Positions 57,256 through 63,663 of a stretch of 64,000 nt of DNA are shown one piece after another (the stretch's first letter is position 1; each line of letters opens with the position of its first letter). Position numbers and translations under genes: made by a program. Where the stretch lies: positions 36,453 to 100,452 of the forward strand of contig BEIN01000008.1 of NCBI GenBank assembly GCA_002898375.1, in the 5' to 3' direction. The stretch comes from a bacterium HR37. Its GTDB lineage: Bacteria > Desulfobacterota_D > UBA1144 > Nemesobacterales > CSP1-2. The notes beneath the pieces were generated by a model. That model did not search any database, was not told the DNA's origin, and saw only the letters and a program-made list of their open reading frames with translations.

Positions 57256-59391
57256 CTAGATAAAAAGCGGTGCCAGAACAAGTGTAATGGTAGAGAGTAG
57301 CTTTATAAGAACATGTAGCGATGGTCCAGCAGTGTCTTTGAATGGATCACCTACCGTATCTCCTACAACAGCCGCTTTATGGGTTTCAGAACCCTTTCCA
57401 CCGTACATCCCGGTTTCTATAAACTTTTTGGCATTATCCCATGCCCCACCACCGTTATTCATCATGGTTGCAACAAGGATACCACCTATTGTTCCTACCA
57501 TAAGAAATGCAGCTACCGTTTCTGCTCCCAGACCAAATTGTTTAAACACTAAACCTACCACAACTGGCATGGCAACAGCAAGGATTCCTGGAGGTACCAT
57601 TTCCTTTAAGGCCCCCCTTGTAACAATATCTACACACCTTGCATAATCCGGTTTTGCAGTTCCCTGAAGGATACCCGGGTTTTCCCTAAACTGAGCACGA
57701 ACATCATTTATAACATAATAAGCCGCCCTTGCAACCGCTCTAATTGCAAGAGCACTGAAGAGAAACACAAGCATTGCTCCAAGAAGCCCTCCTACAAATA
57801 CCTCAACCTTGGCAATATCAACGGAATGGAAAGGGTATCCTACAATGTGGGTTACCTCATCCAGATACGCCGAAAAGAGCAAAAACGCAGCAAGTGCTGC
57901 AGAGCCAATTGCATATCCCTTCGTAAGAGCCTTTGTTGTGTTTCCCACGGCATCAAGCCTATCAGTTTTGTTTCTTATCTCCTCAGGTTGTTTACTCATC
58001 TCAACAATCCCCCCAGCATTATCCGTTATAGGACCAAATGTGTCTTCAGCAAGGATATACGCACAGGTAGCAAGCATCCCCATAGTAGCAACCGCCGTAC
58101 CATAGAGCCCAGCTCCTATCTTGGATATATCAGGGAAATCACTTAGTCCCTTAACCCCACAGTAGTAGGCAGCAATAATTGCTGCTGAGATCACAATAAC
58201 AGGTAAAGCCGTACATTCAAGAGCCACAGATAGCCCTGCAATGATATTGGTTGCAGGACCAGTTTGTGAGGCCTCAGCAATTAGCCTCACAGGTCTATAT
58301 CTGTACTCTGTATAGTACTGTGTTATATAAACAAAAACAATACTTGTTATAATCCCTATAAAACCCGCTGTAAATAACCAGATCCACGATGAACTCCCCT
58401 CTACCCTCAGAAGCATATAACTTGCAATGGCAAACCCTATTGTAGCCAGTATGCAGGTTACATAATATCCACGATTAAGAGCACTCATTGGATCCTCCCT
58501 GTCATCCCTTAAACCAACTACCAATACACCAACCATACTAGCAATAAGCCCAAATGCACGTGCAACAAGAGGAAAAAGAATCCCCTTTATACCAAAGTGA
58601 GGGAAAAGGGTTACCCCAAGAATCATAGCCCCAATGTTTTCAGCCGCTGTGGATTCAAAAAGATCCGCACCACGACCTGCACAATCTCCTACATTATCAC
58701 CCACAAGATCCGCAATAACTGCAGGATTTCTGGGATCATCCTCAGGAATTCCAACCTCTACCTTTCCTACAAGATCCGCCCCAACATCTGCAGCCTTTGT
58801 ATATATACCCCCACCAAGCTGGGCAAAAAGAGCAACAAAACTTGCCCCAAATCCATATCCAACTATTAGAAATGGTACCCTTTTTACCACTTCAGAATTA
58901 ACCGAAAGACCACCATAGAGGATAAAAAGAAGCACCACCCCAAGTAGACTCATAGCAACAATGGTAATTCCAGAAACAGCCCCACCCCTGAGAGATATCT
59001 TAAGAGCTCGATCCAGACTGTAACGAACAGCACTTGCCGTACGAATGTTTGATCTTATAGAAATCCACATACCTATATACCCCGCAAGAGCCGAACACCC
59101 TGCCCCAAAGAGAAATGCTACCGTAGTCCGCCATGCCATATCCAGATTTTCCTTTACAAACCAGTAGAGAATAAATATAAGAGCAGCAAGGAAAACACTT
59201 AACATTATTATGGTTGAGTACTGCCTTTTTAAAAAAGCCTCAGCCCCCTCCTTAATAGCGCTACTTATACGCTGCATCTCTTGTGTCCCCATATCATGGT
59301 TTAGAACAAACCTGGCTAGGTACCCAGCAAAAGCAAGGGAAACTATACTTATCCCTAAAACAAGCAAAACAAAGATATGCGTAAATTCCAT
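57256..59391 (-). CDS. hppA: membrane-bound proton-translocating pyrophosphatase
   Basis: GGGIYTKAADVGADLVGKVE, DDPRNPAVIADLVGDNVGDCAGRGADLFES, GNTTKALTKGYAIGSAAL. Confidence 0.96.
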   Translation of the reverse strand: MEFTHIFVLLVLGISIVSLAFAGYLARFVLNHDMGTQEMQRISSAIKEGAEAFLKRQYSTIIMLSVFLAALIFILYWFVKENLDMAWRTTVAFLFGAGCSALAGYIGMWISIRSNIRTASAVRYSLDRALKISLRGGAVSGITIVAMSLLGVVLLFILYGGLSVNSEVVKRVPFLIVGYGFGASFVALFAQLGGGIYTKAADVGADLVGKVEVGIPEDDPRNPAVIADLVGDNVGDCAGRGADLFESTAAENIGAMILGVTLFPHFGIKGILFPLVARAFGLIASMVGVLVVGLRDDREDPMSALNRGYYVTCILATIGFAIASYMLLRVEGSSSWIWLFTAGFIGIITSIVFVYITQYYTEYRYRPVRLIAEASQTGPATNIIAGLSVALECTALPVIVISAAIIAAYYCGVKGLSDFPDISKIGAGLYGTAVATMGMLATCAYILAEDTFGPITDNAGGIVEMSKQPEEIRNKTDRLDAVGNTTKALTKGYAIGSAALAAFLLFSAYLDEVTHIVGYPFHSVDIAKVEVFVGGLLGAMLVFLFSALAIRAVARAAYYVINDVRAQFRENPGILQGTAKPDYARCVDIVTRGALKEMVPPGILAVAMPVVVGLVFKQFGLGAETVAAFLMVGTIGGILVATMMNNGGGAWDNAKKFIETGMYGGKGSETHKAAVVGDTVGDPFKDTAGPSLHVLIKLLSTITLVLAPLFI

Positions 59392-59528: not shown

Positions 59529-60058
59529 GTGAACTACTCCCAGCTTACGCAGGGAGCTTCTCCTGAGCTTAGCCCAAGAAGGCTAGTTCCTAACCTTAAA
59601 ATATTACGTGACGCATTAATGTCTCTATCAAGAACAATATGACATTTATTGCAAATATGAACCCTATAAGAAAGCAATTTTGGGACTTTAGCACCACAGT
59701 TGCTACAGTTCTGGCTTGTCCCCCTTGGAGCTACCCCAATAGCATACTTACCAGCACTCTCAGCCTTGTAAGCTATGTATTGGAGAAACCTACCCCAGGA
59801 ACAATCACCAATAGATTTAGAAAGATTACCATTTTTTAGGAAATGAACTTCCTCAAACTCAGCTCTAACCTGCTTGACCTCTACAAGGGAATTAGCCTGC
59901 TCAAGATAGGTAACAAGGTATCTTGCTTTTTGCCAAGCCTGAATTCTATGCAGAAGTGCAGAGTTATAAAGCTCTCTACAAAGCTTAAGAGTGGATTCGA
60001 GTTTTTGAAGATGGGTTTTATTGGGGTAGAGTCTGAATTTGTAACTTAGCCTCAACAT
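59529..60058 (-). pseudogene. in-frame internally deleted TnpB with intact right-end hairpin and GTAGTTCAC terminus
   Basis: N-terminus MLRLSYKFRLYPNKTHLQKLESTLKLCRELYNSAL joined to NGNLSKSIGDCSWGRFLQYIAYKAE...CSNCG...CNKCHIVLDRDINASRNI; RuvC-I/II region absent. Confidence 0.75.
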
Positions 60059-61833: not shown

Positions 61834-61939
61834 TTTTTTTGCATAGGGATAGGATGGATATAAAGCACTTTTTGCATTTCTCAAATGATTTGGAGCGTAT
61901 GGAAGAATAGAGGTCTTATAACACTTAAAATTACTACCC

Positions 61940-61999
61940 TGTGTATATATACACAATTTGCACTGTTTACCAATACACAACGGAGTGTTTCTATACACC
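61940..61999. promoter_or_regulatory. cluster of three candidate activator sites upstream of a sigma-54 promoter
   Basis: TGTGTATATATACACA (61940), TGTTTACCAATACACA (61964), AGTGTTTCTATACACC (61984). Confidence 0.55.
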
Positions 62000-62039
62000 T
62001 AACCCACTGAAAAGACTAGATTTAGGTACCAAAAACAAC

Positions 62040-62056
62040 TTGGTATAGATATTGCA
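62040..62056 (+). promoter_or_regulatory. candidate sigma-54 (-24/-12) promoter
   Basis: TTGGTATAGATATTGCA, GG and GC separated by 10 bp. Confidence 0.5.
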
Positions 62057-62101
62057 AACATTATATGAGTATATAAACCTTACACCAAAGGAGGTACTTA
62101 G

Positions 62102-62434
62102 ATGAAAAGACTCTTTATATTTGGGCTAATAACCCTTGGGCTTATACTGGGAACTGTAGGCTCATTTGCAAAGACAAAAGCCAACCCAGTACAGGAGCTT
62201 AAGGGTGAGGTAACACACATTAAGGATGGGTTGTTTACGGTTAAAGACGAAACCGGTAAATCCCATATACTAAAGGCAGCTGACCCAAAGATGTTAGAGG
62301 GGATAAAGGAAGGGGACAAGGTAGAGGTAAAGATAGAGGAGAGAAAAGTAACCTCTATAAGAAAGGTTCAATCAGATGCTGACACAATGCATGAGGAAAG
62401 CCATCCTGAAACCCATACCCAAGGGGTACAGTAA
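62102..62434 (+). CDS. small exported hypothetical protein
   Basis: Signal peptide MKRLFIFGLITLGLILGTVGSFA; RBS AAAGGAGGT. Confidence 0.7.
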   Translation: MKRLFIFGLITLGLILGTVGSFAKTKANPVQELKGEVTHIKDGLFTVKDETGKSHILKAADPKMLEGIKEGDKVEVKIEERKVTSIRKVQSDADTMHEESHPETHTQGVQ

Positions 62435-62449
62435 CCTGAACTAAAGGTC

Positions 62450-62492
62450 AAAAAGGGAGGTAAGTACAGACACTTACCCCCTTTTCTTTTGT
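62450..62492 (+). terminator. intrinsic terminator
   Basis: AAAAAGGGAGGTAAGT acagac ACTTACCCCCTTTTCTTTT. Confidence 0.75.
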
Positions 62493-63349
62493 TAAATGAA
62501 ATGAAAGGATCAAAAAGTACAGTAAATAAAAGATGTCTTGGGCCCCTACACAACCTAGAGAAATTTGTTAAGCCAGATTGGTGGCAACATATCTTTAACT
62601 CAATCTATCTTAAAACCGATGCTGATGTTGTATGTGATTTAAACACCACCAGAGAAGAGGTTAGTTTGTTCTCTTCTATCCTTGGGTTATCACATGAGGA
62701 TAGGATTCTTGATCTGTGTTGTGGACAAGGAAGACACAGCCTGGAGCTAGCAAGGCTAGGGTTCATGAACATAGATGGACTTGATCGCTCCCATTATCTT
62801 ATTCAGAAAGCAAGAGCCAAAGCAAGAGAGGAGGGGTTAAAAGTCAGGTTCAGGGAAGGTGATGCAAGAAAACTTCCATACCCTGACAACTCATTTAGCG
62901 TTGTTATGATACTTGGAAACAGTTTTGGCTATTTTGAGAACATCAAGGATGACTTAAGGGTGCTGAAAGAGGTGTTTAGAGTTTTAAAACCACTGGGAAG
63001 GATTCTTATAGACGTTGCTGATGGAAAGTACTTAAAGGAGAACTTTGAACCGAGATCATGGGAGTGGATAGATAAGAAGCACTTTGTATGCAGGGAACGT
63101 TGTCTTTCCTCTGATAAAGGGCGCCTTATATCCAGAGAAGTGGTCGTTCACGTGGAAAGAGGTGTAGTTGTGGATCAGTTCTATGCTGAAAGGCTCTACA
63201 CCCGTGAGAGCTTAAAGAAGCTTCTGGAGGAAGCAGGATTTGGTTCTATAAACTTTCACGGTGGGATAATTACAGATTCAAAGAGAAATCAGGATCTGGG
63301 TATGATGAAAAAAAGAATTGTTGTTACAGCACTAGTGGAAAGGCGGTAG
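62489..63349 (+). CDS. class I SAM-dependent methyltransferase
   Basis: ILDLCCGQGRHSLELARLG, VMILGNSFGYF. Confidence 0.88.
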   Translation: MLNEMKGSKSTVNKRCLGPLHNLEKFVKPDWWQHIFNSIYLKTDADVVCDLNTTREEVSLFSSILGLSHEDRILDLCCGQGRHSLELARLGFMNIDGLDRSHYLIQKARAKAREEGLKVRFREGDARKLPYPDNSFSVVMILGNSFGYFENIKDDLRVLKEVFRVLKPLGRILIDVADGKYLKENFEPRSWEWIDKKHFVCRERCLSSDKGRLISREVVVHVERGVVVDQFYAERLYTRESLKKLLEEAGFGSINFHGGIITDSKRNQDLGMMKKRIVVTALVERR

Positions 63350-63353
63350 GCAA

Positions 63354-63393
63354 TGTGTATTATTGCACAGCTTTTACTGTGTAAATATACACA
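63354..63393. promoter_or_regulatory. two candidate activator sites
   Basis: TGTGTATTATTGCACA (63354) and TGTGTAAATATACACA (63378), 24 bp apart; together also an imperfect hairpin 63351-63396. Confidence 0.55.
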
Positions 63394-63432
63394 TTGTTTT
63401 TGGAACAGACTGATATTCATTGTCTTTTTATC

Positions 63433-63448
63433 TGGCATGCAACTTGCA
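63433..63448 (+). promoter_or_regulatory. near-consensus sigma-54 promoter
   Basis: TGGCATG-CAAC-TTGCA. Confidence 0.65.
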
Positions 63449-63475
63449 ATTTTTTATTTAGGGAGGTGATGTAAC

Positions 63476-63598
63476 ATGAAAAAAATAGTAACCCTGCTTT
63501 TAATTGCGTTGTTTTCACTCTCTGTAGCAAGCTCAACTTATGCGGCAAAGAAACCACATCCCACCCCAACACCAACCCCTCCAGCTTCTGTTGAGTAA
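63476..63598 (+). CDS. 40-aa exported Pro/Thr-tailed peptide (not in supplied ORF track)
   Basis: MKKIVTLLLIALFSLSVASSTYAAKKPHPTPTPTPPASVE; RBS GGGAGGTGAT. Confidence 0.7.
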   Translation: MKKIVTLLLIALFSLSVASSTYAAKKPHPTPTPTPPASVE

Positions 63599-63612
63599 AT
63601 AGAGAAAACAAG

Positions 63613-63642
63613 GCTGCAGGCAAGGGTTTTCTTGCCTGCAGC
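63613..63642. terminator. 12-bp perfect hairpin downstream of the 40-aa ORF
   Basis: GCTGCAGGCAAG ggtttt CTTGCCTGCAGC; lacks a clear T tract. Confidence 0.5.
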
Positions 63643-63663
63643 AATATAACAAGATGATTTTAC

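Follow-up and report, generated by a model that had tools for sequence, protein, structure and literature searches.

Sigma-54 has been viewed as chiefly controlling the bacterial exterior (PMC3162934). In the PrsK-PrsR system, a kinase-regulator pair is matched with a sigma-54 motif and an upstream motif located before mostly single-gene operons for exported proteins (Haft et al. 2006, PMC1569441), the regulon having been recognized from the agreement of motif and gene distributions (PMC1569441). The ZraPSR system of enterobacteria, which is concerned with envelope stress, has a membrane kinase and an NtrC-type regulator, is autoregulated, and transcribes its kinase-regulator operon and the gene of a small exported protein divergently, both from sigma-54 promoters (PMC4987338). 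The sigma-54 regulome of Desulfovibrio vulgaris has 37 enhancer-binding proteins, with TGT/ACA dyads and response regulators assigned to envelope stress (PMC4641369). The NifA regulon has a 16-bp TGT...ACA dyad about 70 to 120 bp upstream of the start, plus a -24/-12 promoter.

The locus described here resembles each of these systems. It lies in a 64-kb window, the whole stretch of DNA that was analyzed (C8:36453-100452 of genome G000, which is 2.42 Mb in 33 contigs and 97.6% complete), and comprises two genes for small exported products, each behind a sigma-54 promoter and a pair of 16-bp palindromes. We think it probable that both promoters are part of a sigma-54 regulon governed by a single two-component system that binds the paired sites and is directed at the cell envelope.

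Two twin-site promoters in the window

The first promoter serves the gene for a 110-aa exported protein (62102-62434, + strand). Its twin site consists of a distal palindrome, TGTGTATATATACACA (61940-61955), which is a putative activator site, and a proximal palindrome, TGTTTACCAATACACA (61964-61979), 24 bp from it; all palindromes are given without strand. The -24/-12 element, TGGTATAGATATTGCA (62041-62056, + strand), lies 61 bp past the twin site. A third palindrome, AGTGTTTCTATACACC (61984-61999), is weak, with three mismatches, and is probably not essential for the promoter. The first-pass annotation of this DNA had proposed three sites here, centered at about -118, -94, and -74, and these distances are correct on direct reading; all three sites are present, but the one at -74 is the weak one and the constant feature is the 24-bp twin. 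TnpB-like transposase fragments are found near this cassette (59534-60058, - strand).

The second promoter serves the gene for a 40-aa Pro/Thr-rich exported peptide (63476-63598, + strand), with distal and proximal palindromes TGTGTATTATTGCACA (63354-63369) and TGTGTAAATATACACA (63378-63393), again 24 bp apart, and the -24/-12 element TGGCATGCAACTTGCA (63433-63448, + strand) 39 bp past the twin site, two helical turns closer than at the first. Here, too, direct reading agrees with the centers given earlier (-97 and -73). The promoter elements listed in that annotation were all located to the base, the best palindromes of the two promoters are indeed identical at 15 of 16 positions, and the spacing of exactly 24 bp, counted between the starts of the 16-bp palindromes, holds in both promoters. 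A methyltransferase-like open reading frame between the two genes (62489-63349; 861 nt) lacks a separate twin site. Downstream (3') of the 40-aa gene is a perfect 12-bp hairpin, GCTGCAGGCAAG-GGTTTT-CTTGCCTGCAGC (63613-63642, + strand), without a T-run, which is a possible terminator of the gene.

These sites exceed chance expectation. Within the 64-kb window, the single palindrome at up to three mismatches has 12 matches, compared with 1.17 expected by chance, and the twin pattern at the same tolerance occurs solely at these two places, giving 4 matches over both strands where 0.05 is expected; none of 100 shuffles reached 4.

Conservation, promoter coupling, and helical phasing

Among the 81 genomes searched, the twin pattern at up to two mismatches is present in all seven genomes of the window's family, at three to eight places each, and also in several genomes of a sister family (f3), so that the conservation in related genomes that was to be checked is borne out. 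With the pattern reversed as a control, none of the six relatives gave a match, and the own genome gave three strand-counts.

Promoter coupling was scored at 43 distinct twin sites (all 37 from the family and 6 from f3), using a -24/-12 element at a weighted consensus score of at least 16.5 of 19.5 and 20 to 105 bp away. Such an element accompanies all 43 sites, compared with 140 of 3,787 random positions at the same loci, and the 37 family sites have it at 29 to 96 bp (null, 3.7%). The palindromes are thus not randomly placed; random placement would have counted against the first reading. Of six further sites, two, in f3, have a promoter, at 72 and 84 bp, and the four without one look like chance matches, so that across the genomes examined a promoter accompanies 45 of the 49 twin sites.

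Measured from the twin-site end to the TGG of the promoter, the gaps cluster near 29, 39, 50, 61, 72, 83, and 94 bp, a period of about 11 bp or one helical turn (R = 0.69; 0 of 20,000 uniform draws), and the period persists with likely orthologues removed (R = 0.65; again 0 of 20,000 draws). An activator that loops while bound to a fixed DNA face would be expected to give such phasing. The combination of a twin palindrome, a 24-bp spacing, and an 11-bp phased gap to the -24/-12 element is a code strict enough to trace the regulon in relatives.

Regulon members in the genome

An rpoN gene is present in the genome, with Sigma54_DBD scoring 198.9 bits in a 505-aa frame on C15. A second, short RpoN-like open reading frame (C7:7020-7445, L037) encodes 233 aa that include a sigma-54 DNA-binding domain, and a histidine kinase gene is located nearby. 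Pattern searches, with the sigma-54 score being a simple weighted consensus, answer the suggested genome-wide scan with about ten twin-site/sigma-54 promoters. Besides the two in the window, these are located before a C18 copy of the 110-aa gene (96% identical), before a copy of the 40-aa gene followed by a gene for a 100-aa exported protein on C20, in a second C20 region in which a gene for a 95-aa homologue of the 110-aa protein starts about 460 bp downstream, before a gene for a 53-aa acidic exported peptide on C25, and on C9, where promoters in both directions serve a kinase-regulator operon and a gene for a 114-aa exported protein. On C8, a site pair with a sigma-54 promoter precedes dapL, with the sites 22 bp apart rather than 24. 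One clear and one degenerate palindrome, with a promoter, precede short paralogous open reading frames on C24 and C10 (L025:8028-8207 and L030:4051-4233; MERKKGIL...), which diverge abruptly after about 46 shared residues; these appear truncated, since a possibly related protein behind a twin site in G004 (L198) has 194 aa. A looser search of the own genome found, beyond the known sites, no strong promoter at an in-phase distance.

Three pairs of paralogous loci were noted: window positions 63350-63658 and L024:14501-14812, with 95.5% DNA similarity (the latter including, at L024:14629, a near-identical paralogue of the 40-aa gene whose twin site and promoter are the same), 61939-62489 and L023 (93%), and L025:7797-8173 and L030 (87%). 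In all three, the similarity starts at the distal palindrome's left edge or within a few bases of it, a pattern suggestive of whole enhancer-promoter-gene cassettes having been copied together, and the duplicated 40-aa cassette stops just past the hairpin. TnpB-like fragments (L023:10100-10295) lie directly upstream of the C18 copy of the 110-aa cassette. Adjoining the second 40-aa cassette is a C-terminal fragment of an ion-pumping pyrophosphatase (L024:14216-14368), which copies the end of the gene at 57256-59391 in the window.

The 16-bp length of the sites and half-sites matching TGT-N10-ACA are those of NifA upstream activator sequences, and a C20 protein scoring above the cutoff of the NifA model (538.3 versus 528.85 bits) is encoded about 4 kb from a twin site, near the copy of the 40-aa gene. 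A nitrogen response acting through this protein is nonetheless very improbable: the NifA N-terminal region was found in only 3 of the 15 twin-site genomes tested (G000, G001, and G005), the genome has no nitrogenase component (PF00148), the twin-site targets are not nif genes, and TGT...ACA motifs are common to several different regulators in D. vulgaris (PMC4641369). NifA as the general activator, at first attractive from the twin-site neighborhood, was ruled out by this distribution. The NifA-like gene (L024:15949-19501) has P-II (glnB-like) and amtB genes as neighbors, PF00148 being undetectable in the genome, and a scan with its protein returned only distant relatives.

Targets and the cell envelope

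Both small proteins have a hydrophobic signal-like stretch at the N-terminus. Single-sequence AlphaFold predicts that the rest of the 110-aa protein folds into an OB-like barrel of five strands (pLDDT about 88 in the core and 72.6 overall). A fold search gave weak OB-fold matches only, such as IF-1, and there is weak profile similarity to CusF and ExtJ; no solved structure matched this protein family by sequence, and no relatives were found in named genomes. A homologue in G004 has the OB domain fused to LysM.

Further targets were seen in relatives. These include an RlpA lytic transglycosylase, a ten-LysM protein, a CpoB-like TPR lipoprotein, a GT2/BcsA-like polysaccharide synthase, and, in four genera (G000, G001, G002, and G005), the LL-diaminopimelate aminotransferase DapL, which in G000 scores above its NCBIfam cutoff; the main target in f3 is acidic exported peptides. 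PrsK was considered as the identity of the G005 target (L206) and rejected, the protein being the GT2/BcsA-like synthase. The proposal of a dedicated sigma-54 regulon for small secreted products therefore stands as to a dedicated regulon, but not as to small products alone, as dapL, rlpA, LysM, CpoB-like, polysaccharide synthase, and histidine kinase/regulator genes are also targets. Judged by annotation, the targets suggest the cell envelope and peptidoglycan as their common theme.

A PrsK/PrsR-type PEP-CTERM (exosortase) regulon, with a different motif, would have the same layout of single-gene operons for exported proteins, a repeated upstream motif, and sigma-54. PrsR motif 1, at times repeated, precedes the sigma-54 motif by 62.8 nt on average (PMC1569441), and PrsR is the second-best NCBIfam model for the C9 regulator described below. 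This reading is hardly credible, however, as PrsR motif 1 is a 17-mer ending in TTTACA and the window's two targets have no C-terminal PEP-CTERM region; membership was rejected on the sub-cutoff PrsR score (410 versus 502.6) and on the missing exosortase, PF09721 being absent from all seven family genomes.

The C9 kinase-regulator pair as candidate activator

A candidate for the enhancer-binding regulator that was to be located was found on C9, with a twin site of its own. It is one of 11 strong enhancer-binding proteins in the genome and contains Response_reg, Sigma54_activat (AAA+), and HTH_8 (Fis-type HTH) domains (L219:4941-6320); its partner kinase has two hydrophobic helices about 40 to 45 residues apart, followed by HAMP, HisKA, and HATPase domains. 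The twin site (L219:3393-3432) is common to the kinase gene and the divergent 114-aa gene. In G001, G002, G003, and G004, as in G000, a twin site and a sigma-54 promoter mark the start of the kinase-regulator operon, and the G006 operon is immediately preceded by a twin site that has promoters facing both ways; the G005 contig ends inside the kinase gene, and a twin site is thus at or adjoining the operon start in all six family genomes where the promoter can be read. The operon is divergent from a small exported protein gene or a CpoB-like gene in several genomes, and it is conserved in f3, mostly divergent from a CpoB-like lipoprotein gene. No twin site was found in the f3 kinase-regulator promoter region, which argues that autoregulation is a feature of the window's family and that control of the targets is shared.

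Regulator orthologues and twin sites co-occur: 14 genomes have both, 9 the regulator only, 3 the sites only, and 55 neither (Fisher p = 2e-7, with genomes counted regardless of shared ancestry). The nine regulator-bearing genomes without a twin site at up to two mismatches are all from f3 except G020, and no regulator was matched in G025, where a twin site is present together with a promoter and a target. Distribution across relatives was profiled for two of the 11 enhancer-binding proteins. The recognition-helix region of the regulator HTH is nearly invariant among orthologues, and the sigma-54-contacting loop reads GAFTDA in all orthologues examined (GSFTDA in one genome) in place of GAFTGA. 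In the remaining ten enhancer-binding proteins of this genome the loop is GAFTGA or GAFSGA, and GAFTDA is found at 7 of about 80 other enhancer-binding-protein loci. The GAFTDA variant of DVU2106 in D. vulgaris is listed as compatible with activation (PMC4641369); for VfmH of Dickeya, the effect of GAFTDA was not decided (PMC10714721).

Position and distribution make the C9 regulator the likely cognate activator of the twin sites. A twin site in the regulator's promoter may also signal control by another regulator, in which case one of the nine remaining enhancer-binding proteins would be the true activator and the C9 operon one of its targets, as the f3 promoter without a twin site might suggest. 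We consider this distinctly unlikely, as the C9 regulator matches the twin sites in distribution, has a conserved HTH, and is adjacent to a twin site in six genomes.

Discussion

Building on the observed site anatomy, promoter coupling, phasing, conservation, and rpoN, and on the co-location and co-distribution with the kinase-regulator pair, we propose a circuit in which the C9 regulator would bind the twin sites in response to envelope or cell wall status. The membrane histidine kinase, with a periplasmic part of about 40 to 45 residues, would probably sense the state of the envelope and phosphorylate the NtrC-type response regulator (receiver, AAA+ with the GAFTDA loop, and Fis-type HTH). 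The regulator, probably as two dimers, would bind the two 16-bp palindromes 24 bp apart and loop to RNA polymerase-sigma-54 at the -24/-12 element over a distance of whole helical turns. Outputs would include small exported OB-fold proteins, tiny exported peptides, peptidoglycan-linked proteins, and DAP synthesis, with positive autoregulation in the window's family, where the kinase-regulator operon is itself a target.

This would be an undescribed sigma-54 two-component regulon; a literature search, of incomplete coverage, found no description of the twin motif. It spans at least six genera of one bacterial family plus a sister family, and it gives a candidate activator, an operator code, and a likely role to some ten promoters and to many small exported proteins without a name. 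The regulon fits the view of sigma-54 with which we began. A more elaborate version, which we hold as speculative and unlikely, is that the 24-bp pair is a single composite enhancer read by an activator with a lineage-wide GAFTDA loop, that the kinase receives feedback from the OB-fold proteins and peptides, and that an undescribed peptidoglycan-status circuit is spreading by duplication of cassettes cut at the distal palindrome. Feedback of small exported products on the kinase has parallels in ZraP and CpxP, which act in this way on theirs.

Compared with the D. vulgaris regulome, neither the 24-bp twin palindrome nor a matching target set was found described in the available part of that study (PMC4641369). 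ZraPSR is matched in its divergent promoter arrangement by the C9 kinase-regulator operon and the 114-aa gene. The kinase scores 191.6 of 479 bits against the ZraS model and the regulator 351.6 of 760 bits against the ZraR model, far short of equivalog assignment. The small proteins here are OB-fold proteins rather than ZraP, the sites are strict 24-bp twin palindromes, the activator loop is GAFTDA, and about ten target promoters are served, compared with two in ZraPSR.
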